Part shown: positions 16,541-55,613 of the stretch, piece by piece
Layout: the number at the start of each line of letters is the position of its first letter
Numbering within the stretch: position 1 is the first letter of the stretch
Assembly: GCA_021404945.1 (NCBI GenBank)
Contig: QWHO01000015.1
Location: forward strand, 1 to 57,287
DNA from: a bacterium CPR1
Lineage (GTDB): Bacteria; Vulcanimicrobiota; Xenobia; Xenobiales; QWHO01
DNA length: 57,287 bases
Reading direction: 5' to 3'
Position numbers and translations under genes: made by a program
The notes under the pieces: generated by a model
What the model was told of the DNA's origin: nothing
Database searches by the model: none
The model's input: the letters and a program-made list of their open reading frames with translations, nothing else

Positions 16541-17329
16541 TCAAACCAGCTCTTCGGCCGGCCGGTCCTCCCGATCCAGGGCTACCCCCACCCTCCCGCG
16601 CACCACCAGCACGTTGCAGGCCGCCTGGCTCATCACCTGCCCCGAAACGCTGCCCAGAAAAAGGCGGGCCGGGGCGGACAGCTCGCGGCTTCCCACCACC
16701 ACCAGCTCCGCCTCCAGCTCGCTGGCAGCCTTCAGAATCGCCGCTGTGGCCTGGCCAGTTTCCAGGCGGGGTTGGCAACCGACCGTCCAGTCCTCAAGAC
16801 GCCGGCTGACCTCGGCGAGCACCTCGCGACGAAGCGCTTCTTTGGACGGCTCGCTGCAGACGGCCACCGGGGTAAAGGTGACGCCATCCTTGGGCCAGGG
16901 GAACTGGGAGAGGAAGTCCAGGCAACGATTGGCTGTCTCGATCTGGTTGACAGCCAGAACCACGTTGCGGATGGGGCGGCCCGTGCGGGCGATGCCCACG
17001 GGGCATTGACAGCTCTGCACCAGCCTGGCGGCCAGCCCGGCCGACTGCTCACCGGTTGACGAGACGCCCAGCACGACCAGGTCGGCGGGCAATTCGGCGG
17101 CCATTTTCAGGATCGATTTGGCTGGATCTCCCGTAAGAGTGAGGGTAGAAGCCTCCACGCCCGGTCGGCGCTGGCGCTCGGCGACATTCTTGAGCCGCTT
17201 GCGCACGTCACCCGAGGCCGGACCTCCGGCAGCAGCCACGACCGCCACGTAGCTCGGGTCAGGCAGGCTCAGATTTTGCAGCAGCTCTTCGGCCAGCCCG
17301 ACTTCGTCCACGGCCAGGAGGACGTTCAT
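16541..17329 (-). CDS. Tandem universal stress protein (UspA) domains
   Basis: The 262-residue protein contains two UspA-like halves: MNVLLAVDEVG to ADLVVLGVSS at about residues 1-120, and RNVVLAVNQIE to AELVVVGSRE, ending LGSVSGQVMSQAACNVLVVR, at about 122-245. The ATP-binding pattern is only partly kept in the second half (LGSVS) and is degenerate in the first. The ATG at 17327-17329 is divergent from the receptor kinase gene, with 54 bases between the two starts, so the two probably share a control region. Confidence 0.85.
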   Translation of the reverse strand: MNVLLAVDEVGLAEELLQNLSLPDPSYVAVVAAAGGPASGDVRKRLKNVAERQRRPGVEASTLTLTGDPAKSILKMAAELPADLVVLGVSSTGEQSAGLAARLVQSCQCPVGIARTGRPIRNVVLAVNQIETANRCLDFLSQFPWPKDGVTFTPVAVCSEPSKEALRREVLAEVSRRLEDWTVGCQPRLETGQATAAILKAASELEAELVVVGSRELSAPARLFLGSVSGQVMSQAACNVLVVRGRVGVALDREDRPAEELV

Positions 17330-17383
17330 GGGGAAATCTTCGTGGCCTCCCTGCAGGATACCCTCCCGCACCGGCGGGAAGCC

Positions 17384-19687
17384 ATGAGAAAGGGAGGGAT
17401 GACTCTGGAGCCAGGTCACGTCCTGCTCGACCGCTTTGTGATCGTCCGCCCCCTCGGTCGGGGGGGCATGGGCGCGGTCTACCTTTGCGAGGACCGGCGC
17501 CTGTCGGGCAAGCTTTGGGCCATCAAGGAGATGGTCTGTTACGACCCGTTGCTGCTCAAGGAGGCGACCGAGAACTTCAACCGCGAGGCCCACATGCTGG
17601 CCGGGCTGCGGCACAAGAGCCTGCCCATGATCGTGGACCACTTCGAAGACCAGGGCAAGAGCTACCTGGTCATGGAGTATGTCGAAGGGCAGAACCTGGC
17701 CAAGGTGGTCGAGGTCGAGGGCCCCCTGAGCGAGTTGCAGGCCATGCGCTGGGCTCTGGAGATCGCCCAGGTGCTGGGCTACCTTCACCAGCAGAATCCA
17801 CCCGTGATCTTCCGCGATCTCAAGCCTGAGAACGTGATGATCACGACCTCCATGAGCGGTCCGGCCGGCGAGGGCCGCGTGGTCAAGCTGATTGACTTTG
17901 GCCTGGCGCGCCATTTCGACCCCAAGAAGCGTCGCGACACCCAGGCTTCAGGCTCGGTCGGCTACGCCGCCCCCGAGCAGTGGGAGGACTCGCGCCAGAC
18001 GGATGGCCGCAGCGACATCTACTCGCTGGGCGGCACGCTCTACTACGTGCTGACCGGCAAGCCACCGTCCCCCATTTACGGCAGCCACCGCATTCGTCCC
18101 CACCGCAAGGATATCGGCACCGACACCGAGGCGCTGGTGCTACGTTGTCTCCAGAGCGATCCGGGCCAGCGCTACTCGGATACCAGCGAGCTGGTGCGCG
18201 ACCTGCTGCTGATTCTGGCCCGTCTGGGAGACAAGCGTCCGGAGGCTCCGGCCCGGCGTCCCGTGGCCAGGCCCACTTCCGAACTTTCTCCCCTGGCCGC
18301 TCCCAGGCTGAGGCCCGGGTCTGGTGCTCCGCGCTGGCTGGGGGCCCTGATGGTCTCGGCCACGATCTTCTTTCTGACCGCCGCGCTGGTCGGCCTGGTG
18401 CGGCCCGGCGGCGCAAAACCCTCCTTCCGCAGCCTGGATAGCCTCACCCGCACCGGCCTTTCCGAGAAGAATCGGGCCAGGCAGCTGATGGAGCAAGGCT
18501 CTCCGGCCAAAGCCATCGAGCTGATGGATGGCCTGGTCACGCGCAACCCGGCCGACGCCGAGGCCCACATTCTCAAACAGAACGCGCTGGCTTTGCTGCT
18601 CGGCAAGCCCCCCGTGCGCGTGCCCGTGTTGACCTCCATGTCCGGACGCGAGGGGAACGAGGGCGTCAGCCTGCTCTATGGACTGGCCCTGGCCCAGGCC
18701 GAGGTGAACCAGCTGGGGGGGCGCCCCCTGGTGCTCGACCTTTACAATGACGAATCTTCCCTCCCCCTGGCCTTGCAGCTCTCCAAGGAGACTATCTGCC
18801 CGCGGCCTGACTACCTGGTGGAGATCGGGCCCTTCAATTCCCAGCACACTCTGGCCGTGGCCCCGGTCTACAACGACGCGGGTCTTGCCATGGTGGCACC
18901 GGTGGCCTCCGACCCGCGCATCTGGGAGGCCGGTCCTTACTGCTTCACCGGCTCGGATTCCAATCTCGAGCGGTTGGACGCCCTGGCCGCTCACTTCACT
19001 GGCTTGGGATTGAAACGGGGCGCCATCCTGTACGACCCGGGATTAACCCTGTCGAGCACCATGGCGGGCGAGTTCAGCTCGATTCTGCTCAAGCGGGGCG
19101 GCGAGGTCGTCTCCGAGCAGCCCTATGGCGAGAGCAATCTGCCGATGCTGATCAAATCTCGCCCCCAGTTTCTCTTTCTGGCTGAGTATCGGGCCCAGGT
19201 GCTCGTCGATCTCATGCGCCAGTTGCACCAGGCCGGCATCCAGGTACCCACCGCCAGTCAGGCCCGCCTCTTCGGCAGCGAGCTGGTGCGTAGCGGAGGC
19301 AAAGACGTGGAGGGGCTGCTGCTTTCGGCCTATTTTCATCCGGACGCGAGCCGCCCCGAGGTGGCCGACTTCAAGCGCAAGTTCCAGCAGACCTTCGGCG
19401 AGCTGGACCCCTCTCATCGCGAGGCCACGGCCTATGACGTGCTCAAGATGGTCTTGCCCGCGCTGGAGACGCCGGGAGCGACGCGGCGCTCCGTGCGCGA
19501 CTACCTGGCCGGGCTTTCCGAGTATGTCGGGGTGACCGGCAGCTTTGCTCCCGGAAAAAAGCTCGATCGGCGCCGGGCCTACGTGGTCGAGGTGCGAGAC
19601 GGAACCTACCAGCTGGTCAGCGAGCCTTCGGGGAAGGAGACGGGCTTGGAGCCAGCGGTGCCTCCATCGCCCCGACCGTCACCGTAA
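17384..19687 (+). CDS. Receptor Ser/Thr kinase with extracellular periplasmic-binding-protein-like sensor
   Basis: The 767-residue protein has a cytoplasmic kinase at about residues 15-285 (Gly loop RGGMGAVYL, Lys48, FRDLKPEN with Asp145, DFG with Asp171, APEQW). A linker and one transmembrane helix follow (about 319-339). The outer part (about 411-745) resembles the Leu/Ile/Val-binding or ANF-receptor fold (VLTSMSGREGNEG, GPFNSQHTLAVAPVYND, AMVAPVASDP). HRD has become FRD, a common active variant. A short TPR-like stretch precedes the sensor. Inference: it senses a small ligand. ATG 17384 was preferred over ATG 17399. The 3' end overlaps the convergent gene by 71 bases. Confidence 0.88.
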   Translation: MRKGGMTLEPGHVLLDRFVIVRPLGRGGMGAVYLCEDRRLSGKLWAIKEMVCYDPLLLKEATENFNREAHMLAGLRHKSLPMIVDHFEDQGKSYLVMEYVEGQNLAKVVEVEGPLSELQAMRWALEIAQVLGYLHQQNPPVIFRDLKPENVMITTSMSGPAGEGRVVKLIDFGLARHFDPKKRRDTQASGSVGYAAPEQWEDSRQTDGRSDIYSLGGTLYYVLTGKPPSPIYGSHRIRPHRKDIGTDTEALVLRCLQSDPGQRYSDTSELVRDLLLILARLGDKRPEAPARRPVARPTSELSPLAAPRLRPGSGAPRWLGALMVSATIFFLTAALVGLVRPGGAKPSFRSLDSLTRTGLSEKNRARQLMEQGSPAKAIELMDGLVTRNPADAEAHILKQNALALLLGKPPVRVPVLTSMSGREGNEGVSLLYGLALAQAEVNQLGGRPLVLDLYNDESSLPLALQLSKETICPRPDYLVEIGPFNSQHTLAVAPVYNDAGLAMVAPVASDPRIWEAGPYCFTGSDSNLERLDALAAHFTGLGLKRGAILYDPGLTLSSTMAGEFSSILLKRGGEVVSEQPYGESNLPMLIKSRPQFLFLAEYRAQVLVDLMRQLHQAGIQVPTASQARLFGSELVRSGGKDVEGLLLSAYFHPDASRPEVADFKRKFQQTFGELDPSHREATAYDVLKMVLPALETPGATRRSVRDYLAGLSEYVGVTGSFAPGKKLDRRRAYVVEVRDGTYQLVSEPSGKETGLEPAVPPSPRPSP

Positions 19688-21398
19688 CGCTGCTCAGACC
19701 GGCCGATTCGATCGTGACCGTCCCGCCCTTCAGCTCGAGGGGGATCTCGAGTTGCAGGCTGCCATCGGTTGGAATCTGAAAGTCCGACTCGGCGCACCGG
19801 ATGGGCACCGAGCCCATCGGGTTGCCCCATTCGTCATCGACCTGCACAGCCACGACCGCCAGCTGGCCGGGAGCCTGGTAACGCTGGCGCACCAGGTCAG
19901 CCCTCAGGCGGCGAGGGCTGCCGGCCTGGTAGCACAGGCTTTCCTCAGCCCGGGCTCCCCCACACTCCACCTTGACCAGACCCGGCCCGGGCAAGCGCAG
20001 GGAAGTCAGCTCGACGCTGGCCCGACCTTCCTTGACGGTGGTGGCGTAGGCAGACAGCCTGACCCGGTCGCCCAGGAAGCGAATGGGAGTGCCGTCGGGC
20101 ACGCTCTGTCCCCCGGGAGCGGTCACCTCGGCCACCACCCGGGTCTTGCTCGACCCGTCGGCCGGCAGGCTCGATTCCTCCACGCTGAGTTGGATGCTCT
20201 CGGGGTAAGTGGCCGGGTGCTCGTCATGCACCAGCAAGGCGGTGGCCACGGGCTTCTCGCGGGTGGTCGAGCCCGGTCCCGAGCCCACCACGTCCCCTCC
20301 GATGACCATGTCCACACTGGCCCCTCCGTCCAGGTTCATGGCCTCCACCGCCCCCCGACGGATCAGGCGTGAAGCCAGCTCTTCCAGGCGCAGACCCTGG
20401 GTGTGGGTGTCCCGCCAGCCGGCGGCGGTGGCCAGCAGCATGCGCCCGTCGCGGGTGGTGGCCAGGGCCGTGCGGCCGCACGATCTGGTGATGTCGTTGC
20501 CGCTGCGCCCCAGCGCTTCCTGCTCGGTGGTGAGGGCGATCGCTCCTCGGTGGACCAGTTGGGGACCACCTCCCAGAGCCAACAGGACGTCGGTCCAGGT
20601 GTTGCCGTCGGTGGAGACGAGCTTTCCCCCGCGGGCAGCGATGCGGCTGAAGCTGACTTTGCGGTCCCGGGTCTGGGCCAGGGCGGTTCGCGGCGGTCGA
20701 CGCCCAACGTGCGGGGTCAGCAGCTTGCCCTCTTTGACGACCAGCCCCAGGGGACCGCCGGAGGTGGCAAAGTAGCCGCCGTTGATGCCCACCCGCGCTC
20801 CCGTGCGGCGCACCATCGAGCTGACGGTCTCGCGGGCGTCCAGCCGATTCTGGGCCAGGCCCACGTCCAGGCGCACCTTGGGGTCATCCAGCGCATAGCT
20901 CACGTCGTTCCAGAGAAGATAGCCCGTGGAGTTGGCTGCCTCGCGGCGGATCCACTTGAGCCCCGAGCTGAGCGAAATCGTCTCTTCGCGAGCGTAGTAG
21001 GGATCGATGTCCACCACCAGCCGGGGAGGATTGTCCAGCACCTCGGTCTTGATCTGCGAGGCCGGAATCCGCTCGCGCAGATTGAGCGTCCAACGCACCC
21101 GACTGAGGTTCTCTTGTTGCAGGTTGCTCGACAGGAGCCAGGGAGCCCGGGGGGTGGGCCGACGCAGGCTGTCGGGCAGCTCGGCCCCCACCACCTCGAA
21201 CACCAGGCGCTCGGGCTTGCTGCGCTGGTAGACCTGGCAGACGGGCGCGCTCTCGGTTTCCAGAACCAGGCGCAGGGTATCCCCGTGCTGACCGATGCGC
21301 ACCAGGGTGACCCGATTGAGCTCATCGGCCCGAACGGGGGCCAGCAGGCCCAGGGCCAGCGACAGGAGGCACAGTGTACGGACAAAGGCTCTCGGCAT
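19617..21398 (-). CDS. Secreted AMIN-NAGPA phosphodiester glycosidase-like protein with Ig-like domains
   Basis: The 593-residue protein has a signal peptide (residues 1-24) and an AMIN-like beta domain (about 26-130: ESAPVCQVYQRSKPERLVFE). A NAGPA/phosphodiester glycosidase domain follows (about 165-395), with VGINGGYFATSGGPLGLVV, RTALATTRDGRMLLAT and AMNLDGGASVDMVI. At least two invasin-like Ig domains come next (about 405-570: SSLPADGSSKTRVVAEVTAP, DDEWGNPMGSVPI). AMIN domains usually bind peptidoglycan or sit in outer-membrane machines, so an envelope location is likely. The substrate is unknown. Confidence 0.85.
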   Translation of the reverse strand: MPRAFVRTLCLLSLALGLLAPVRADELNRVTLVRIGQHGDTLRLVLETESAPVCQVYQRSKPERLVFEVVGAELPDSLRRPTPRAPWLLSSNLQQENLSRVRWTLNLRERIPASQIKTEVLDNPPRLVVDIDPYYAREETISLSSGLKWIRREAANSTGYLLWNDVSYALDDPKVRLDVGLAQNRLDARETVSSMVRRTGARVGINGGYFATSGGPLGLVVKEGKLLTPHVGRRPPRTALAQTRDRKVSFSRIAARGGKLVSTDGNTWTDVLLALGGGPQLVHRGAIALTTEQEALGRSGNDITRSCGRTALATTRDGRMLLATAAGWRDTHTQGLRLEELASRLIRRGAVEAMNLDGGASVDMVIGGDVVGSGPGSTTREKPVATALLVHDEHPATYPESIQLSVEESSLPADGSSKTRVVAEVTAPGGQSVPDGTPIRFLGDRVRLSAYATTVKEGRASVELTSLRLPGPGLVKVECGGARAEESLCYQAGSPRRLRADLVRQRYQAPGQLAVVAVQVDDEWGNPMGSVPIRCAESDFQIPTDGSLQLEIPLELKGGTVTIESAGLSSVTVTVGAMEAPLAPSPSPSPKAR

Positions 21399-22687: not shown

Positions 22688-22920
22688 GTTTGGCTCTCGC
22701 TTTCCCGGCAGGCTGGCAGACGGTGCTTGCGTGCAGTGAGGGCCGGTTCGCCTCGGGCCGGGGTTGCTCCCTCCCCGGGTTCTGGATAAACTGGTAATAT
22801 TCTGGCAACCGCTTTGCCGGTAGGTCACGGTATTGTGAAGGAGCGCGTCTTGTTTCAGTCTCTTTTGAGAGGCTCGCGGTAGGTTGAGGAGCGAGGGGCT
22901 GGTGGAAGGGAGGTGAGCTG

Positions 22921-24858
22921 ATGGCGGTCAATCCGATGGTTCCAGGGTTCGATCCCGGCAAGGCCGGTCGACCTGTCGCCAGCAACGGCAACCCGACCGT
23001 TACGAGCTCCGAGCCCGAGGACAGAGTCGGCGCCCCGGTCGATCCTTATGAGCGAATGACCCAGATGCGCAAGCAGGGGCTGGGAAGCACGGCCATGGGC
23101 CCCATTGTCGCCGACCAGGTCCCGTTCGGCCAGGCTCCCCCGCCTCAAGCCGCTCCCGAGCAGCCGGGCGCGCCTCCCGCCCCGGAGCCTCCGGCTGTCC
23201 AAACTCAACCAGACCGACCCATCGTCGTCAAAGAGCCGGTCTCGGAAGACATGCGCGAGATGATCGCCAACATGCGCCGGGCCGGCGTCGAGATTCCCGA
23301 GGCTCCCGAGCCTTCCGCTCCGCCCGCCGCCGCGCCTGCCGTCGGGCAAGCCGGGTCGGCTTCCCCGCCCCCCCCGACGCCGGTCCCCTCCGAGCAGGCC
23401 CCTGAGATTTCCGCTCAGCCCCAGGTTCCCCAGCAGTCGGTCAGCCAGGACCCCTGGGCCAGGCTCGAAGAGATGCGTCGCAACGGAATGGGCAGCACGC
23501 CCGTCTCGGGCTTTGCCTCCCAGCAGCTTGGCTTGCAGGGCCCGGGCGCTTCGCCCACCCCGGCCCCGCAGCCCACCTCCCCGTACCCCGAGCCTCCCGC
23601 CCAGAGTCCGGCGCCCTCGCCCCCCCCCGAGCCTTCCGCCCAGAGTCCAGTACCCTCGTCGTCCGAGCCTTCCACTCAGAGTCAGGCCGAAGCCCGGGCT
23701 CCCGAGGCCGGGTCGCTTCAAGGAGCTCGTGAGGTTCCTCGACCCCTTAAAGAGCCGATCACCGGCGACATGGCCCAGATGCTCGAGGACATGCGGGCCA
23801 ATGGCGCTCTGCCGCCTTCCGAGCCGGTGGGTCAGGCCGCGGCCAGCGGAAGTCCTGTGCAGACCGACCCGGTGCCGACACCACCCTCCGAGCAGCCAGC
23901 GCCGCCTCCGTCCCAAGATTCTTATGCTCGAATGGAGCAAATGCGCCAGCGCGGCCTCGGGTCCACCCAGGCCGGCTCCCTGGCTCGCGCGCAGATCGAT
24001 CTCGAGGAGTTCGACCGCCAGCATCCGGCCCCACCTCCGCCTCAGGAGTTCGAGATCGCCCCGCCGCCCAGGACGCAGGAGTCGGTCATCGCTCCGGGCG
24101 GGCAGAATCGCGTTTTCGACGAATTCCAGGTGCCTGCGCCTCCTCCCCGAAGCGACTGGTGGGGCAGTTGGGGCGATTTCGGGAAGGCTCCCCAGCCGCC
24201 CCCCCAGACAGCTCCCCAGGCACCCCCGGCTTCCACGCAACCCGGCGACGGCTGGTTCGGACAGTGGGGCGACTTCGGCGCCGCGCCCGCCCAGACGACG
24301 CCCGCAGCAACGCCTGCTCCAGCTTCGCAGCCCTCCAACAGTTGGTTCGGCCAGTGGGGCGACTTTGGGGCCGCTCCCGCACAGACGGCTGCTGCCCCTG
24401 CCCCCCAGCAACCGGCCGCAAACCAGTGGTGGGGTCGTTGGGGCGATTTCACGCCCAGCCCCGCGCCCACTCCTCCCGTTCAGCCCCAGAGCTGCGCGGA
24501 CGACTGGCTGCAAATGGGCCGATTCCAGCCAGACTACCGCTCTCCGCAGCAACCTTACTACGACCCGCAACAGGCTTCCTACGACCCCTACCAGGCTTAT
24601 TCGGGAATCCAGATGCCCTACCAGCCTCATCCCGGCAGCCTGCCTCCCTCGATGCAGTCCTACGGCCAGTACCAGCAGCAGGCGCCCTGGCAGATGCAGC
24701 AACAGATGCAAATGCCGCCCATGAGCAATGCACCCTTGTGGTCGATAATGAGCTTGATGCCGGCCATCAGCATGATCAGCATGCTCCCGATGATGATGAT
24801 GCCCATGATGATGATGCCCATGATGATGCCCTTTGCGTTCGGGGGGTTCGGCTTCTAG
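22921..24858 (+). CDS. Pro/Gln-rich repeat protein with WGDF repeats and poly-Met hydrophobic tail (novel)
   Basis: The 645-residue protein matches no family I know. Three parts are visible. (1) About residues 40-360 hold copies of a short helical motif in Pro-rich linkers: MTQMRKQGLGST, LEEMRRNGMGST and MEQMRQRGLGST, plus a second type, MREMIANMRRAGVE and MAQMLEDMRANGAL. (2) About residues 412-510 hold four aromatic repeats: WWGSWGDFGKAP, WFGQWGDFGAAP twice and WWGRWGDFTPSP. (3) A Tyr/Gln-rich stretch ends in a hydrophobic tail with MMMMPMMMMPMMMPFAFGG. There is no signal peptide. A GGAGG sequence lies six bases before the ATG. The antisense frame is also open but is a composition effect. 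Confidence 0.8.
   Translation: MAVNPMVPGFDPGKAGRPVASNGNPTVTSSEPEDRVGAPVDPYERMTQMRKQGLGSTAMGPIVADQVPFGQAPPPQAAPEQPGAPPAPEPPAVQTQPDRPIVVKEPVSEDMREMIANMRRAGVEIPEAPEPSAPPAAAPAVGQAGSASPPPPTPVPSEQAPEISAQPQVPQQSVSQDPWARLEEMRRNGMGSTPVSGFASQQLGLQGPGASPTPAPQPTSPYPEPPAQSPAPSPPPEPSAQSPVPSSSEPSTQSQAEARAPEAGSLQGAREVPRPLKEPITGDMAQMLEDMRANGALPPSEPVGQAAASGSPVQTDPVPTPPSEQPAPPPSQDSYARMEQMRQRGLGSTQAGSLARAQIDLEEFDRQHPAPPPPQEFEIAPPPRTQESVIAPGGQNRVFDEFQVPAPPPRSDWWGSWGDFGKAPQPPPQTAPQAPPASTQPGDGWFGQWGDFGAAPAQTTPAATPAPASQPSNSWFGQWGDFGAAPAQTAAAPAPQQPAANQWWGRWGDFTPSPAPTPPVQPQSCADDWLQMGRFQPDYRSPQQPYYDPQQASYDPYQAYSGIQMPYQPHPGSLPPSMQSYGQYQQQAPWQMQQQMQMPPMSNAPLWSIMSLMPAISMISMLPMMMMPMMMMPMMMPFAFGGFGF
24157..24453 (+). repeat. 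Four WGDF-type coding repeats
   Basis: Four copies encode W-W/F-G-x-W-G-D-F, each followed by a Pro/Ala/Gln-rich spacer. Copies two and three (WFGQWGDFGAAP) are identical at protein level. The Trp and Gly-Asp-Phe positions are invariant, while spacers vary in length and composition, which suggests selection on the motif. Confidence 0.8.
24790..24831 (+). repeat. In-frame ATG trinucleotide array (poly-Met)
   Basis: The array reads ATG x4, CCC, ATG x4, CCC, ATG x3, CCC. It encodes the Met-rich tail of the repeat protein. Because the unit is three bases, slippage would change tail length without shifting the frame. Confidence 0.9.
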
Positions 24859-24952
24859 AAGTCCGGCCGCAAACCCCCATGTGGTGTCGGAGGGAACCTC
24901 CGCCACCACAAGATGTTGTGGGCGTCCGGACTTCTAGCACAATCTGTTGGGC
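24855..24952. repeat. Palindromic repeat module R2 (copy A) after the stop codon
   Basis: The outer arms are a perfect 12-base inverted repeat, CTAGAAGTCCGG at 24855-24866 and its complement at 24926-24937. Inside is a second hairpin at 24880-24910 (TGTGGTGTCGGAGG paired with CCTCCGCCACCACA, one mismatch, loop GAA). The TAG stop of the repeat-protein gene lies inside the left arm. The right edge (AGCACAATCTGTTGGGC) recurs at 53.8 kb next to the same arms. No T-run follows. Confidence 0.75.
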
Positions 24953-25111
24953 GGCGGGTTTCTGCAACGTTACTGAGCTTCGCGTTGAGCTTCGGGCTTC
25001 GACTGGAACCAGGCTCGGGGGAGGATCTGAGCGCCCTGGCTTGAATTCCCATAAAGTCGCGCTGCCCAGGGTCGAGGCGGCGACTCAAGATTTGTGCGGA
25101 GAATTCCCTCG

Positions 25112-26578
25112 ATGGCGCTGCGGAAGTCATTCCTGCTCCTGCTCCTGTTCATTCTGTGGCTCTGTTCAGCGACGCCCCTCTGGGCCCAGGACAACTACGA
25201 GCTCGAGCCCCCCATGGTCGGCGTCTGGCTCTCTCCTGACTGGCTGTTCCCGGGTACACGTCAATATGGTGAGTTGGAAGTACGCCGGGTAGCCCGTCAG
25301 ACCATGGCCCACCTGGCCAAGCAGGGCGTCACGGCCGTTTTTCTGGAGACCTTCCTGCGCGGTTACTCCATCTGTCCCGCCGTCGAGATCAAGAACCACA
25401 CGGCCCGAGTGGTGCCCTACAAACCCGGGGAAGGGGGCGTTCCGGTCTACCCGCATCTGAGCTGGAGCTTTCGGACCGAAGGCGACGAGGTGATCGACAC
25501 CCTGCAGATCTTCATCCAGGAAGGCCGTAATCAGGGCATCGAGGTGCACGCCTGGTGCCACATGTTCTATTGGAAGATGGATAACACCACGGCCATGCTG
25601 CCGTGGCACAGCGGCCCCAGCCTGTGGAACGAGCTGATAGCGGACTATCTTCGACGCGAGGCGGGCCGCCTGGATGGAAAGCCGGGTGCGGCACCCGATA
25701 CCGTGGCCATCATGCGCGAGACCGCCCGGTTGTTCGAGACCAGCTCCGAAGCCCGCCAGATCTCCGTCATTCTCGCTCGTCACGGGGTGAATGATCAGGG
25801 TAGCCCGCTGGGAACGGTTCTTCGTCAGGCGATGCGGGCCGGTGCCCATCCGCCCGAGTTTCTCCTGGTCGGGCCCCAGGACGACCCCTTTCCCGCTCCT
25901 CGGCGTAAACTGCTTCGCCCAATCTACGTCAATCCCGAGTCGGAGCTCGTGCGCAAGCGTCTGAAAGATGCTCTGACCGGCATCATCCAGGGCCACCCGG
26001 GGGTCGCCGGCCTGCACATGGACCACGTACGCTTTCCGGTGGATGGACAGGGGTTACCCGAGTGGCTGGGCATCCGCGATGGAGCCTATAACTACTACGA
26101 GGCCTCCAACCCTACCCTGCGCGAGCAGTATACCCGCTGCCACGAGATTCTCCGGCGTCGAGAAGCGAGTTTGCGGCTTCTGGTGGATGACATGCGCCGG
26201 GTCCTGGGGCCGCATCGAGCCCTGTCGGCGGCAGTTCTCCCGCTCTACTATCGAGACCGGGACAATGGTCGCTTTCGGCTTTCCGGTTACGACTTTTGCT
26301 GCCAGGACTGGATGGGCTGGCAGGTCGACTTTGTCGTGCCGATGATGTACGAGTTCAATCCCTGGATCATCCGCAATCTGCTGCGCCAGTTCGCGGCCGA
26401 CCTCGAGCAGAGGTTCGGAGCTCAGACGATTCGAGTGTATCCGGGCATCTCCAGTTGGAGAACGGCGGCGCGTGGAGACCTCGACACCCGGGCCTGGGTC
26501 TTCTTCGACCTCACTCTGGCTCGCGATGTCAAGCTCGAGAAGCAAGAGCCCGAGGACTTCGACTTCGGGCCCGAATGA
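25112..26578 (+). CDS. Secreted glycosidase-like protein (GHL10/YngK type)
   Basis: The 488-residue protein starts with a signal peptide (MALRKSFLLLLLFILWLCS to LWAQ). It shows the TIM-barrel features of GHL10 (DUF187-like) proteins: VGVWLSPDWLFPGTRQYGE, QTMAHLAKQGVTAVFLET, GIEVHAWCHMFYW, GLHMDHVRFP and VDFVVPMMYEFN. Related enzymes act on glycans of the envelope or biofilm; the substrate here is unknown. ATG 25112 is preferred over GTG 25094 because a GGAGA sequence lies about ten bases upstream and the signal peptide starts there. The stop overlaps the Nudix start (ATGA). Confidence 0.82.
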   Translation: MALRKSFLLLLLFILWLCSATPLWAQDNYELEPPMVGVWLSPDWLFPGTRQYGELEVRRVARQTMAHLAKQGVTAVFLETFLRGYSICPAVEIKNHTARVVPYKPGEGGVPVYPHLSWSFRTEGDEVIDTLQIFIQEGRNQGIEVHAWCHMFYWKMDNTTAMLPWHSGPSLWNELIADYLRREAGRLDGKPGAAPDTVAIMRETARLFETSSEARQISVILARHGVNDQGSPLGTVLRQAMRAGAHPPEFLLVGPQDDPFPAPRRKLLRPIYVNPESELVRKRLKDALTGIIQGHPGVAGLHMDHVRFPVDGQGLPEWLGIRDGAYNYYEASNPTLREQYTRCHEILRRREASLRLLVDDMRRVLGPHRALSAAVLPLYYRDRDNGRFRLSGYDFCCQDWMGWQVDFVVPMMYEFNPWIIRNLLRQFAADLEQRFGAQTIRVYPGISSWRTAARGDLDTRAWVFFDLTLARDVKLEKQEPEDFDFGPE

Positions 26579-35902: not shown

Positions 35903-38900
35903 ATGAATCTCGGACCGATCGACCGGGTCGTTTTGTCCCGTCCGCTGCCGGCCTCGCGCAACGCCCCTCCGGCTGCCAGCGTGGAGCCGCAAGATAGCGT
36001 GCGTCTGGGCCAGACCCCGGGCCTGCCGCCCGGGCTCGAGCTGCGACCGGGCTGGACCTTTACCGGCCAGTTGAGCCAGCAGCGCATCGACGTGCCCTTC
36101 CCCTATCCCGGAACGGCTCTGGAGATGAACGAGCTGCCGGCCCTGGTGACCGAGCTCCGGGGCCAGGGCCAGCCCGGGGCGGCCCGAGGGCTGTTGGAGT
36201 GCTTTCTCAGCCTGGGCGAGCGCTACGGCGTGCTGCCCGGCTCCAACCAGCTCAACGAGCTGGGTCGCTCCGGGATGCCCCGTCTCTCTGAGCTGGTGCT
36301 GCAAGAGCCCCACGATGCAGACTTTCTGGCCCGGGCCTATGAGGTCATCGCCTCCGACCACCGGAACTCCTGGAGCGACGGTTACTTCAAGCAGCTTTCC
36401 AACGGGCTCAACCGATTCTGCGATGTGGACTACTCGCCTGAGGCCACGCTGGAGGAGTCGGGCGGCTCCAAGAACGCCCACCGCTTTGAGAACGGTGACC
36501 CCATGGCCTACGCGCCGGTGGACCTGAACGCCTGGCTCTATCGCACCGAGAAGGACCTGGCCACCATGGCCACCCGGCTGGGACGCTCGGACGAGGCCGC
36601 CAGCTGGGACCACAGGGCGGAGCTTCGCAAAGAGCGCATGCTGGACACTATGTGGGACCCCGACAGCCAGACCTTCCGCGACCTCAAGGGCGACCAGCGC
36701 TCGTCGGTGGAGACCCTGGCCAGCCTGGCGGTGCTGCGGGCCGGCGTGTTGGAGGGCGACGACCCCCGTGCCCGGGCGATGCTGGCCAGCCTGGAGCGGC
36801 TGCGTACGCCCGAGGGCCTGCTCTGGGAGAGCGCGGGTCGTCAACTGGCCTCTCCCGCCGAAGTGCGCGACCTGCTCGGCCCCAGGCCCCCGGCGGTCTC
36901 CTCCTACCAGGTCCCGATCAGCCCGCTGGGGGCTCATCGCCAGAAGCTGATCGGTCTGGAGCCGACCGCCGGCCCCGTCGACCGACGCATGCTCGAGTTG
37001 CATGAAAGCTTGTTTTCCCCCACGGCCATCTCGGCCTTGCAGAGCCGCGGCTTGACCGGGCTGGTCTATGGCACCGAGCCGCTCTCGCCCCAGGCCTCCC
37101 AGAAGCTGGTGGGTCCTCTGCGGGTGGGCCCCTTCTCCATCGAGCTGCCGGAGGCCGAGCTGGCGGTGCTGGCGCCGGGCGTCTTCCAGTTGCAAAAGGG
37201 CTCGGATTGCCTGCTGGGGGCGGCCCTGGGGGATGGCCTGCTGCTGGGCGACCGGCTCTACGCCCGCGAGGAGCTGCCCGCTTCGGGCCGGGTCAAGCTG
37301 CCCCAGAGCATTCTGGGTACCTTCTTCCGCGCCGGCGGCAATGCCGCCCTGGCGCGCTTCTTCGATCATCAGCGCGATTGGCTGCAGGAGGCCCACTCCA
37401 CCCCGGCCACCGAGCTGGCCCCGCTCGCCGCCCGTACCGCCTGGAATCACCTTTATGAGCGCGCAGCGGCAGGCTGGGAGCCGCTGACCATCGAGCCCTC
37501 GGTGGTGGCCAGAGACTCGGCCATGCCCATCTTCCACAAAGCAGCGGTGCCCAGCCTGGGCATCTTCAAAACTCAGTTCAACTGGGATACCCTGTTCATG
37601 GCCCTGGGCATGCGCTGGCAGGGGGCCGGCCAGACGGTGGCCGGGATGACTGACAATCTGCTCTTCTTGCTCGATTCGACCGGGCGCGTTCCCAACGCCG
37701 CCCGCTCGGTCTACCTCAACAAGTCCCAACCGCCTATCCTGCCGCAGCTCGTGCGCCTGAGCCACCCACTCCGGGCGGCTCAGGAGGGCCAGGCCGAGGC
37801 CGACCTCTGGCTGGAGAAGGCCTACCAGGCAATGAGTGGTGACTACAAGGAATTCTGGTGTCAGCAGGGAGAGCGGGGAATTTCCCAGATCAACGGCCAG
37901 TCGGTGCGCCTGGCGCGCTGGGGCGGGCCCAACCACAAGTTTGCCATGGACGAGTCGGGCTTCGATACCACCTCGCGCTTCCACGACCGCACCCTGGACC
38001 TGGTGCCGCCCGACCTGAACGCCTTCCTGTATCGCTATTCCAACGACATGGCCGCGATGGCCGAGCAGTTGGGCAGGGGCGAGGAGGCCGCTTCCTGGCG
38101 CCAGGAGGCGGCTCTACGCAAGGAGTCGGTGCTGCGCCTGTGCTGGGACGAAGCAGATGGTATGTTCCGCGACTACCGCTTCCAGGGTCCCGATCAGGGG
38201 CTGTCTCGCGATCAGGATGCTCTGGCGGCGGCTGTCGGGCCGCTCTGGGCCGGCATGCTCGATCCTTCAGTGCCGGCCGAGAAGCGTATGATCGAGCGCA
38301 GCCTGGCCAGCTTGAGCCGTTTTGAGAAAGAGCACGGGCTGGCGGCCACGGCCGAAGACTACGGCCGTCCCGAGATGCAGTGGAACGGCCCGTCGGGCTG
38401 GGCTCCTCTGCACATGATGGCGATCGAGGGCGCCATGCGCTATGGCGACTATGAGGCCGCCAGTCGCTGGATCGGCAAGTGGCTGGACACCATCGCCCGG
38501 GTGGAGGGTCAGGAAGGCACCATTCTCGAGCGCTACAACGTGGTCTCGGGAGGCCCGCCCCCGGTGCAGAAGGGACGCTACGAGGAGACTCAGGGCAAGG
38601 GGCCGGGCTTCGGCTGGACCAATGCCTCGCTGCCCTGGGGCCTGGTGGAGGTGGTGGGGGGGCTCAGTTGCGAGCCCGGCAAGCTGAGCGTGGCCCCTCA
38701 CATTCCGACCGCCCTGGAAGGCTCGTCTATTCGCCTGGACCTGAAGGATCCGGCCGGTCGCGGAGAGTGGCAGGTGGAGCAGCGATACGACAAAGAGACC
38801 TACCAGCTCACTTTGAGCGGCACCCCGGTGGCGGTGGAGGTGCTTACCCCGCCGTTGCCGCCCGGACGAGGTCCGGAGGAAGTGCCCCAGAGCGATGGGC

Positions 38901-38956
38901 GAGTGCGTTACCGGCTGCGCCTTGAGCCGGGCCAGAGCCACCAGCTCTCACTGTGA
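35903..38956 (+). CDS. Trehalase-like (GH37-related) protein with duplicated domain
   Basis: The 1017-residue protein has two related (alpha/alpha)6-barrel regions. The second (about 540-920) has trehalase-type motifs: FNWDTLFMALGMRW, GFDTTSRFHDR, PPDLNAFLYRYSNDMAAMAE and the signature-like MQWNGPSGWAPLHMM near residue 826. The first (about 110-330) keeps APVDLNAWLYRTEKDLATMA and ETLASLAVLRAG, but the QW..GWAPL segment is replaced, so it looks inactive. About 90 beta-rich residues end the protein. There is no signal peptide, and the N-terminus is a disordered Pro/Arg/Ala segment. It could hydrolyse trehalose or another alpha-glucoside. Confidence 0.78.
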   Translation: MNLGPIDRVVLSRPLPASRNAPPAASVEPQDSVRLGQTPGLPPGLELRPGWTFTGQLSQQRIDVPFPYPGTALEMNELPALVTELRGQGQPGAARGLLECFLSLGERYGVLPGSNQLNELGRSGMPRLSELVLQEPHDADFLARAYEVIASDHRNSWSDGYFKQLSNGLNRFCDVDYSPEATLEESGGSKNAHRFENGDPMAYAPVDLNAWLYRTEKDLATMATRLGRSDEAASWDHRAELRKERMLDTMWDPDSQTFRDLKGDQRSSVETLASLAVLRAGVLEGDDPRARAMLASLERLRTPEGLLWESAGRQLASPAEVRDLLGPRPPAVSSYQVPISPLGAHRQKLIGLEPTAGPVDRRMLELHESLFSPTAISALQSRGLTGLVYGTEPLSPQASQKLVGPLRVGPFSIELPEAELAVLAPGVFQLQKGSDCLLGAALGDGLLLGDRLYAREELPASGRVKLPQSILGTFFRAGGNAALARFFDHQRDWLQEAHSTPATELAPLAARTAWNHLYERAAAGWEPLTIEPSVVARDSAMPIFHKAAVPSLGIFKTQFNWDTLFMALGMRWQGAGQTVAGMTDNLLFLLDSTGRVPNAARSVYLNKSQPPILPQLVRLSHPLRAAQEGQAEADLWLEKAYQAMSGDYKEFWCQQGERGISQINGQSVRLARWGGPNHKFAMDESGFDTTSRFHDRTLDLVPPDLNAFLYRYSNDMAAMAEQLGRGEEAASWRQEAALRKESVLRLCWDEADGMFRDYRFQGPDQGLSRDQDALAAAVGPLWAGMLDPSVPAEKRMIERSLASLSRFEKEHGLAATAEDYGRPEMQWNGPSGWAPLHMMAIEGAMRYGDYEAASRWIGKWLDTIARVEGQEGTILERYNVVSGGPPPVQKGRYEETQGKGPGFGWTNASLPWGLVEVVGGLSCEPGKLSVAPHIPTALEGSSIRLDLKDPAGRGEWQVEQRYDKETYQLTLSGTPVAVEVLTPPLPPGRGPEEVPQSDGRVRYRLRLEPGQSHQLSL

Positions 38957-53738: not shown

Positions 53739-55613
53739 GCGCTCAGGGTTTTCGGCCGCGCTCCTCCCAGGAGCGCAGCTGGAAACCCCCTTGACGCAGT
53801 CCTCCGGCTGCGCGATGCCCAACATATTGTGCTGGAAGTCCGGCCGCCACCCCATGGGGTTTTCGGCCGGACTTCTAATGCGCTCGCACTTTGGTCTTGC
53901 ACATTGGCACAATCTAACGAACGCGCCGGAACTGCGTTCCAGCGCGTTGCAAAGTGCAAGACCAGAGGCCTTGCACTCCAGTCGTTCCAGGGTTCGGCGC
54001 GCATCCTCCGGATGTCCGAGCGCCTGCTGGACGGCTGACAGCTGCCAGTAAGCGCTGAGCAGGTCGGGGCGCTCCTTGAGAGCCAGAAGCAGCAGCTCCT
54101 CGGCCTGGACCATCTCGCCCCGCTTGCGCGCCTGCAATCCCCGGGTCAGGCGGTGGAAGGGTGAGTCCGGCGGAGGGTGCAGCTGCGGAGGTACGCGACC
54201 GGCTCGGGCCAGGAGCACCGAGGCTGCATCGCTGTAGATCTCGACCCAACGCCCGGTCGCCAGCAGAGCCCCGGGTTGGCGTTCTCCCAGGGGCCAGAGA
54301 AAGAAGTCGGCTCCCGAGGCCTCCACCTTCTCAATCCAGCCGGGTGCGAGTCGCAGCACCTCCAGGTAGTCGAGAAAGGTGCGGGGGTCATAGACGGTGT
54401 CGGCTCGACCGTCGATGAACACCTGCAGGTCGTCGCCGGCGCGGTGCAACAGGTAGCCGCCCCAGTTATAGTAGCAGAAGACCCTCCCCTGGAGTCGGTT
54501 GGTCACCAGGAAGTCGCAGGTATCGACGGGAAAGGTCCACTCGGCGGTGAGAACGCCAAAGGCAGCCGAAGACCTGGGAAAGGGCGCCAGCCAGAGCACG
54601 GCTGCGAGCAGGGCGACCGCCGGGGCTGCCCGGAGAAGAAGCGGGCGGGGGCGGATGGTGGCCAGGAGACCGGCCAGGACCGGGGCTACCAGGAGGGCCT
54701 GGGCCAGCCCCAGCAGAGCGATGAAGCGGCGGCTGCGCAGCGACATGCTCACCACCAGGATCACCAGCAATACCAACCACGGCCCTTTCTCTCCGCGCCA
54801 GTCGGGGCGCAGGATCCAGGCCGCTGCGCAGGCACCCAGCAGACCCAGCACCCAGGGATAGAGGGGCGACCGGATGCCTCCCGGCCGGAAGGGAGGATGC
54901 CACTCGGCGATGGTCCGGAAGGGAGAGTCGGTGAACCCGTAGAGGAATGGAGCCCTCAGGATCTCCCAACCATAAGGATTCATCAGGCAGGCTGCTACCG
55001 AGGCGGCTCCCAGCAGCAGGGATCGGCGGCGCCGCGCTCCCCCGGCCAGCCAACCGGGGGCTAGCAACAGGGGCAACGCGACCAGGCCGAAGGCAAATCC
55101 TGCGTGCAGGTTGCTCCAGACCAGAAAGAGGGCGGGGAGCCAGGGCGAGGGCGTCTTTCGGGCCAGGGTCAGATTGAGCATGAGCGCGAAGGCCAACAGG
55201 GTGTAGAGGTGGGGTCGGATATCCAGGAAGGGGGCCGCCAGGGCGGCACCCAGGAGGACAGCGAGAAAGCTGGCTTCGGGTGAGGCCGTCAGCCGCATCA
55301 AGACCCGGAACAAGAGAACGAACGTGAGGGCCAGGATGGCCCACTTCCAGTAAACCAGGCTGGGCAGACCAAAGGTCCGTTCCCAGACGGCAAAGCTTAC
55401 GCAGGAGAGCCATTCGTGGTTTACCCACGGTTGCCCCGGCCGGGCGAAGGACCAGGGGTCCGCCCGGGGCACCGCGCCGTGGGCCAGTATCCAGCGCCCT
55501 CCCGCCAGGTGATAGTAGAGGTCCGAGCCCCGCATCATCGTGTAGCCGGCCCCCCAGCCTGCCAGGAGCACGGCCAGATACCACATCAAGGCGCGGTGGC
55601 GTGATGGCGCCAC
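53502..55613 (-). CDS. GT-C-like polytopic membrane protein with TPR-like tail, 3' end altered by repeats
   Basis: The N-terminal 330 residues form about ten membrane helices with an early outer loop (GSDLYYHLAGGRWILAHGAV, NHEWLSC). A soluble part follows with FCYYNWGGYLLHRAGDDLQV and FIDGRADTVYDPRTFLDYLE, typical of GT-C/PMT-like membrane proteins. A TPR-like pair comes next (LLALKERPDLLSAYWQLSAV). From about 53990 downward the frame is made of modules R1, R2 and R3 and then runs antisense into the SH3-like gene. The last 160 residues are therefore probably not ancestral. Starts: GTG 55613 or ATG 55586. Confidence 0.62.
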   Translation of the reverse strand: MAPSRHRALMWYLAVLLAGWGAGYTMMRGSDLYYHLAGGRWILAHGAVPRADPWSFARPGQPWVNHEWLSCVSFAVWERTFGLPSLVYWKWAILALTFVLLFRVLMRLTASPEASFLAVLLGAALAAPFLDIRPHLYTLLAFALMLNLTLARKTPSPWLPALFLVWSNLHAGFAFGLVALPLLLAPGWLAGGARRRRSLLLGAASVAACLMNPYGWEILRAPFLYGFTDSPFRTIAEWHPPFRPGGIRSPLYPWVLGLLGACAAAWILRPDWRGEKGPWLVLLVILVVSMSLRSRRFIALLGLAQALLVAPVLAGLLATIRPRPLLLRAAPAVALLAAVLWLAPFPRSSAAFGVLTAEWTFPVDTCDFLVTNRLQGRVFCYYNWGGYLLHRAGDDLQVFIDGRADTVYDPRTFLDYLEVLRLAPGWIEKVEASGADFFLWPLGERQPGALLATGRWVEIYSDAASVLLARAGRVPPQLHPPPDSPFHRLTRGLQARKRGEMVQAEELLLLALKERPDLLSAYWQLSAVQQALGHPEDARRTLERLECKASGLALCNALERSSGAFVRLCQCARPKCERIRSPAENPMGWRPDFQHNMLGIAQPEDCVKGVSSCAPGRSAAENPERSVDGLQVAKVQAHEKDPLMAMLTRIQGGADQQPGLTVAPFQNDGAAVSMNGPHDGPPGQTLHDRPSIRGRPGPLRSDV
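53770..53825. repeat. Palindromic repeat module R3 (copy B)
   Basis: GAGCGCAGCTGGAAACCCCC followed by TTGACGCAGTCCTCCGGCTG and CGCGATGCCCAAC matches the reverse complement of copy A at 48.05 kb at most positions. It lies 31 bases after the stop of the SH3-like gene and abuts module R2. Confidence 0.7.
53831..53876. repeat. Palindromic repeat module R2 (copy B)
   Basis: Perfect 12-base arms GAAGTCCGGCCG (53835-53846) and CGGCCGGACTTC (53864-53875) enclose CCACCCCATGGGGTTTT. On the minus strand the sequence after the arm continues AGCACAATATGTTGGGC, matching copy A at 24.9 kb. Copy A has a longer inner hairpin. Confidence 0.75.
53877..53979. repeat. Palindromic repeat module R1 (copy B), read as coding tail
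   Basis: It matches copy A (32436-32536) over about 100 bases in the same orientation, from AATGCGCTCGCACT to GTGCAAGACCAGAG and on to the CCTTGC end. It contains GGTCTTGCAC and its exact complement GTGCAAGACC. It lies in the open frame of the GT-C-like membrane gene and supplies its C-terminal residues. Confidence 0.75.

Follow-up and report, generated by a model that had tools for sequence, protein, structure and literature searches.

The window, i.e., the whole stretch of 57,287 nucleotides that was analyzed, contains on its forward strand an open reading frame that begins with ATG and encodes a protein of 645 amino acids. An earlier description, prepared without database searches (hereafter, the sequence-only reading), had credited it with helical MRxxG motifs, WGDF repeats, and a Met-rich hydrophobic tail; MRxxG-type helices, WGDF units, and a Met/Pro tail were all present. 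The strong ribosome site claimed for the gene was also found, in the form of a full Shine-Dalgarno sequence. The features of the locus are as follows.

22909..22916, + strand: Shine-Dalgarno sequence GGAGGTGA, 7 nt from GGAGG to ATG
22921..24858, + strand: gene encoding the 645-aa A/B-module protein, with its stop codon (an open reading frame with syntenic homologues that share its module order)
23041..23130, + strand: module A1, DPYERMTQMRKQGLGSTAMGPIVADQVPFG, residues 41-70, predicted helix 43-50
23224..23298, + strand: module B1, VVKEPVSEDMREMIANMRRAGVEIP, residues 102-126, predicted helix 109-120, pLDDT block of ~81
23449..23538, + strand: module A2, DPWARLEEMRRNGMGSTPVSGFASQQLGLQ, residues 177-206, predicted helix 178-187
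23743..23814, + strand: module B2, PLKEPITGDMAQMLEDMRANGALP, residues 275-298, predicted helix 282-293
23917..24006, + strand: module A3, DSYARMEQMRQRGLGSTQAGSLARAQIDLE, residues 333-362, predicted helices 332-343 and 361-367
24157..24450, + strand: four [WF]GxWGDF units (24157-24180, 24253-24276, 24343-24366, and 24427-24450) in Pro/Ala/Gln linkers, homologues having (GPQG[YF])n instead
24499-24525, + strand: degenerate fifth WGDF unit, DDWLQMGRF
24526..24726, + strand: low-complexity Gln/Tyr/Pro-rich stretch, from the WGDF block to the tail, seen in the sequence
24727..24855, + strand: uncharged hydrophobic Met/Pro tail ending in GGFGF, residues 603-645, recognized by hydropathy, with position and composition shared with homologues
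24857..24935, no strand assigned: palindrome AGAAGTCCGG...CCGGACTTCT, strong hairpin of -50.3 kcal/mol (z -5.3)
25094..26578, + strand: exported GHL10-like downstream neighbour with an N-terminal signal-like segment, which adjoins the gene in homologous loci too

Five MRxxG and four [WF]GxWGDF motifs were counted in the protein. Among 2000 composition shuffles, only two contained three or more MRxxG motifs, and none contained even one [WF]GxWGDF motif. Searches of Pfam, NCBIfam, and PHROGs returned no family match for the protein, which agrees with the earlier claim that it belongs to no known family. The proposed lack of a signal peptide was likewise upheld, the N-terminus being polar and the hydrophobic maximum lying in the tail only. 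The protein and two homologues described below, H1 and H2, all carry a net charge between -24 and -26. A long antisense open reading frame (22855-24909) was rejected as the gene because conservation follows the + frame, and an Rfam match (sR5) that fell within the poly-Met codons did not reach threshold and was put down to chance. We conclude that the open reading frame encodes a real, previously unclassified protein of the Eremiobacterota (UBP9), and that its family is new, i.e., undescribed in the three libraries searched. Disordered proteins that repeat short helical binding motifs and are hydrophobic at one end are, as a kind, already known in general.

The first two bases of the palindrome at 24857-24935 complete the TAG stop codon of the gene; the element is possibly a terminator or a dispersed repeat. 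A dispersed palindrome, AGAAGTCCGGCCG...CGGCCGGACTTCT, has at least three copies, at 24857-24935 and 53834-53876 of the window and at 20415-20456 of another contig of the same genome (G000:C139), and the copy at the gene end carries an extra inner hairpin. The GHL10-like protein encoded downstream is conserved across the order, and its close relatives come from records labelled UBP9 and Candidatus Eremiobacterota. In this species the protein matched neither Pfam nor NCBIfam; GHL10 was matched by an orthologue only, below threshold. A UBP9-type GHL10 locus with 59% identity to the window is also present in JAAZKF010000038.1 (L156), a record titled Burkholderiales bacterium, and this label is therefore probably wrong. 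Elsewhere in the window, an 803-aa open reading frame (17276-19687) joins a serine/threonine kinase domain to a periplasmic-binding-protein (Peripla_BP_6) domain, and a 1017-aa protein with a trehalase/GH63-type domain (35903-38956) has a long polar N-terminus, MNLGPIDRVVLSRPLPASRN, unlike a signal peptide.

The MRxxG motif of the 645-aa protein comprises two distinct modules, A and B, which alternate in the order A1-B1-A2-B2-A3. The repeats reported by the sequence-only reading are therefore there, but their types number three, not two. The A consensus is D-x-[WY]-x-R-[LM]-x-x-[LM], followed in this protein by RxxG[LM]GST and then by a short second element with a conserved Gln, while the B consensus is K-x-P-x-[ST]-x-D-M-x-x-M-x-x-x-[ML]-R-x-x-G. 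When the protein was modeled alone with AlphaFold, six short helices were predicted, one at each of the five modules and the sixth where A3 ends, with disorder elsewhere; confidence was low, the mean pLDDT being 45.5 and the best block, at B1, about 81. A model of H2, obtained with two further rows and also of low confidence, showed the same pattern, with helices at residues 44-52, 97-106, 153-161, 167-172, and 178-186. We take both models as support for local helix propensity only. Comparison of the A-module profile with solved structures produced no meaningful match.

When the whole protein was searched against 149 genomes of the phylum, the query alone was recovered, and a scan of genome contigs with the protein yielded no confirmed relative. 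Homologues were missed by the whole-protein search because the low-complexity query hid them; they were located instead by synteny with the downstream GHL10-like gene. The host genome is the sole member of its family of the order within the set searched. Syntenic homologues were found in three genomes of one genus (g7) of another family (f3) of the same order, directly upstream of the GHL10-like orthologue.

H1: genome G145, L046 5710-6828, protein P0001, upstream of the GHL10-like orthologue
H2: genome G148, L047 5283-6395, protein P0002, upstream of the GHL10-like orthologue
Third homologue: genome G146, split across two contig ends, L045 and L061

A fourth genome (G147) retains ~150 bp of the 3' end of the gene, at 75% identity with gaps, i.e., a decayed remnant. 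Neither H2 nor the A and B profiles retrieved a further copy from the 18 genomes of the class. In a sister family (f2), ispF and the GHL10-like gene are separated by guaB or, in G140, by pseudopilin-like genes, and no syntenic homologue is therefore present there. Since few genomes carry the gene and one member of the genus has lost it, we consider the 645-aa protein to be an accessory component.

Profiles built only from the A and B units of the 645-aa protein itself, which avoids circularity, were searched against six-frame open reading frames of the relatives' loci. The A profile matched H1 (E = 8e-7), H2 (3e-6), and the G146 fragment (0.004). The best match of the B profile was H2 (3.5e-7), followed by three proteins from a different family. 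A colinear alignment of the module regions scored 181, versus a maximum of 130 in 500 local-composition shuffles. In H2, the closest relative, the modules run A-B-A; in H1, B is truncated. The A-B-A order is common to the two families. Conservation of the repeats in homologues had been set beforehand as a test, and the outcome was mixed: the MRxxG-type modules were kept in order and sequence, but WGDF was replaced by (GPQG[YF])n. Outside the gene, the WGDF pattern was not found in the 7.4-Mb assembly of the host, and at the DNA level it gave single scattered matches in other genomes of the phylum, as chance predicts. Judged from these sequences, WGDF is not conserved, and an aromatic/Gly low-complexity block at the same place is all that persists. 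The homologues also matched part of the PF05287 (PMG family) profile, by their GPQG[YF] repeats only; membership was rejected, the match being judged compositional, and the 645-aa protein did not match PF05287.

Comparison of H1 with H2 revealed which parts of the protein are kept. Identity was 0.85 in A1, 0.97 in A2, 0.86 in the GPQG block, and 0.92 in the tail, versus 0.53 in both linkers, and the neighbouring GHL10-like proteins of the two loci were 0.84 identical. Differences within A2 were distributed over codon positions 1/2/3 as 1/1/11. Based on the identity and codon-position patterns, the modules and the tail are the constrained parts of the protein. The linker identity, together with the AlphaFold helices, bears out the proposal that short helical motifs are arrayed multivalently along a flexible, rapidly diverging linker to which a hydrophobic C-terminus is attached. 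The surface lattice that had also been suggested found no support.

No charged residue occurs in the last 90 amino acids of the 645-aa protein, and 36% of its 50 C-terminal residues are Met. In this protein, H1, and H2, charge is absent from the last 60-90 residues, the octanol-scale sums are -9 to -13 kcal/mol, and the Kyte-Doolittle maximum is 1.6-1.7. On the biological insertion scale the tails are unfavourable (best sums +3.4 to +5.2), because prolines break them. AlphaFold models of the protein and of H2, both of low confidence, contained no helix in the tail, which was predicted to be disordered. The earlier proposal of a tail-anchored protein is thus not established: the hydrophobic C-terminus, favourable on the octanol scale, and the lack of an N-terminal signal agree with it, but the biological-scale sums and the absence of a predicted helix do not. 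Given the disagreement between the two scales, we tentatively take contact of the tail with a membrane to be likely, and regard a classical transmembrane helix as unproven. Position, length class, absence of charge, and an aromatic end (GGFGF here, GGWGW and GAWAW in the homologues) are kept between the protein and its homologues. Aligned with the homologue tails, the tail scored 70, with shuffles reaching 118; the likeness is compositional and not significant.

We propose, with a probability of roughly 0.4, that the 645-aa protein is a lineage-specific, mostly disordered scaffold that docks partners multivalently on a membrane or some other hydrophobic surface. Its five short amphipathic helices (A-B-A-B-A) would be the putative sites at which one or two partner proteins bind, with the Pro-rich linkers spacing them apart. 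The aromatic/Gly block, WGDF here and GPQG[YF] in relatives, may contribute weak self-association. The uncharged Met/Pro C-terminus would hold the protein on the surface, presumably on the cytoplasmic side, and partners would hence be gathered there in several copies. Since H1 bears only a truncated B and one member of the genus has lost the gene, the function is dispensable.

A comparable layout is known from CsoS2 of the alpha-carboxysome, a long disordered scaffold in which short helical motifs bind partners multivalently, separated by variable linkers and followed by a distinct terminal region. The 645-aa protein, with its five modules and with predicted helices only there in a disordered chain, resembles CsoS2 in layout, not in membership: no sequence relationship was found in Pfam or NCBIfam, and the protein ends in an uncharged hydrophobic tail, whereas the C-terminus of CsoS2 anchors it to the shell. 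The neighbours that were examined are ispF, genes for a metallo-beta-lactamase-fold protein, the GHL10-like protein, and a NUDIX-like protein, groESL, and others; none of them was identified as a Rubisco, shell, or carboxysome gene. Some bacterial membrane proteins have a cytoplasmic leader rich in Pro, Gly, Tyr, and Gln, followed by a hydrophobic domain, and lack a signal peptide. The 645-aa protein likewise combines a low-complexity disordered leader and a hydrophobic C-terminus with the absence of a signal peptide, but its leader bears conserved modules, and its end is a Pro-broken Met tail with no recognized transmembrane domain.

It is unlikely that the protein is instead exported or displayed at the cell surface, either as a substrate of flagellar-type export or as a matrix or adhesive protein made sticky by its aromatic-Gly and Met/Pro blocks; the N-terminal modules would then serve as chaperone or export signals. 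The N-termini are short and polar and lack a signal peptide, export genes of the FlhA/SctV type are present in every genome of the class, the adjoining conserved gene encodes an exported protein, and extracellular proteins often contain low-complexity aromatic-Gly repeats. However, the one full-length FHIPEP of the host genome adjoins genes resembling those for flagellar FlhB, FliR, FliM/FliN, and hook proteins, and no separate secretion system was therefore seen; a second full-length SctV/FlhA was not found in the assembly, which is 94% complete, so its absence is not certain. Further, the gene is not adjacent to export genes, and the conserved amphipathic helices are spread along the chain, unlike a single N-terminal export signal. 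The idea of a type III effector was weakened too, as the host genome shows a flagellar-type FlhA only.

Besides full-length FlhA/SctV, all genomes of the class contain FHIPEP open reading frames limited to the cytosolic half (profile positions ~320-656), with more than 10 matches in some genomes of the sister family. FHIPEP matches in the host genome (G000) lie at C147:4267-6183, C165:3103-4086, C241:3592-4563, C278:11602-12195, C206:68-973, and C408:10769-11476; one half-FHIPEP open reading frame of this genome is 473 aa long (L154 2944-4365). A literature search on half-FHIPEP proteins returned nothing.

The properties of the tail also bear on a role as coat or anchor of a storage granule or lipid body, in which the Pro-broken tail, like the hydrophobic segment of oleosins, would insert as a monotopic hairpin and the modules would recruit enzymes. 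Being uncharged, hydrophobic, and Pro-rich, the tail is unsuited to a bilayer-spanning helix, and the homologue tails contain a P-x5-S-P element, which we take to resemble the opening half of the proline knot of oleosins. Yet this element is missing from the tail of the 645-aa protein, which shares with oleosins an uncharged Pro-containing hydrophobic stretch, and neither oleosins, which are a eukaryotic family, nor phasins were matched in Pfam or NCBIfam; we consider such a role quite improbable. Compositional drift, i.e., a low-complexity protein without specific function, is very unlikely: the linkers and the WGDF/GPQG block do vary freely, and one member of the genus has lost the gene, but A2 and the tail are 97% and 92% identical versus 84% for the neighbouring enzyme, the A2 differences are in excess at third positions, and module order is shared by two families. 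A copper- or silver-binding protein, suggested by the Met content of the tail and by conserved Cys among Met in the relatives' tails (e.g., MPMCGIPMMCG), appears highly improbable, as the 645-aa protein has no Cys in its tail, no metal-resistance genes were among the neighbours examined, and the conserved A and B helices would be left unexplained. A chaperone that holds nascent membrane segments by its C-terminus, Gln/Met-rich and then Met/Pro-rich, while its modules dock on the ribosome or insertion machinery, is the most far-fetched, given the lack of a helical fold in the modeled tail and a very narrow distribution with loss in one relative, unusual for a chaperone.

The docking-scaffold reading gains a possible extension from the three proteins of the sister family matched by the B profile. 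B-like motifs are present in proteins of G140 (P0003, two copies; L070/L127 7738-8832; E = 1.5e-4), G137 (L109 1306-2487; 0.02), and G136 (L108; 0.026), with no decoy ranking above them. These proteins resemble the 645-aa protein in that a disordered N-terminus bearing a B-like motif precedes a hydrophobic C-terminus. They differ from it in lacking the A module and the aromatic repeat block and in their genomic position, and they share with one another a Gly/Ala-rich hydrophobic C-terminal domain of about 170 residues, absent from the 645-aa protein, whose tail is Met/Pro. No confident family was found for them; L109 has a sub-threshold DUF2076 match only. Although the motif is short and two of the three E-values are weak, the sequences are suggestive of a docking role for B, displayed by several proteins with hydrophobic ends. 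It is doubtful, but conceivable, that all of them form one UBP9 docking system, in which hydrophobic-ended proteins would show B to a common cytoplasmic receptor, B would be a lineage-specific targeting or assembly code, and the 645-aa protein would be the multivalent hub.

To our knowledge, UBP9, the group that carries the gene, has no cultured member. If the docking-scaffold reading is right, the family would be a compact, testable case of short helices held under selection on a fast-evolving disordered chain, and A and B would be two defined peptides with which the partner could be fished out. If it is wrong, the family would still offer a clear instance of conserved ends on a disordered protein that is specific to one lineage.
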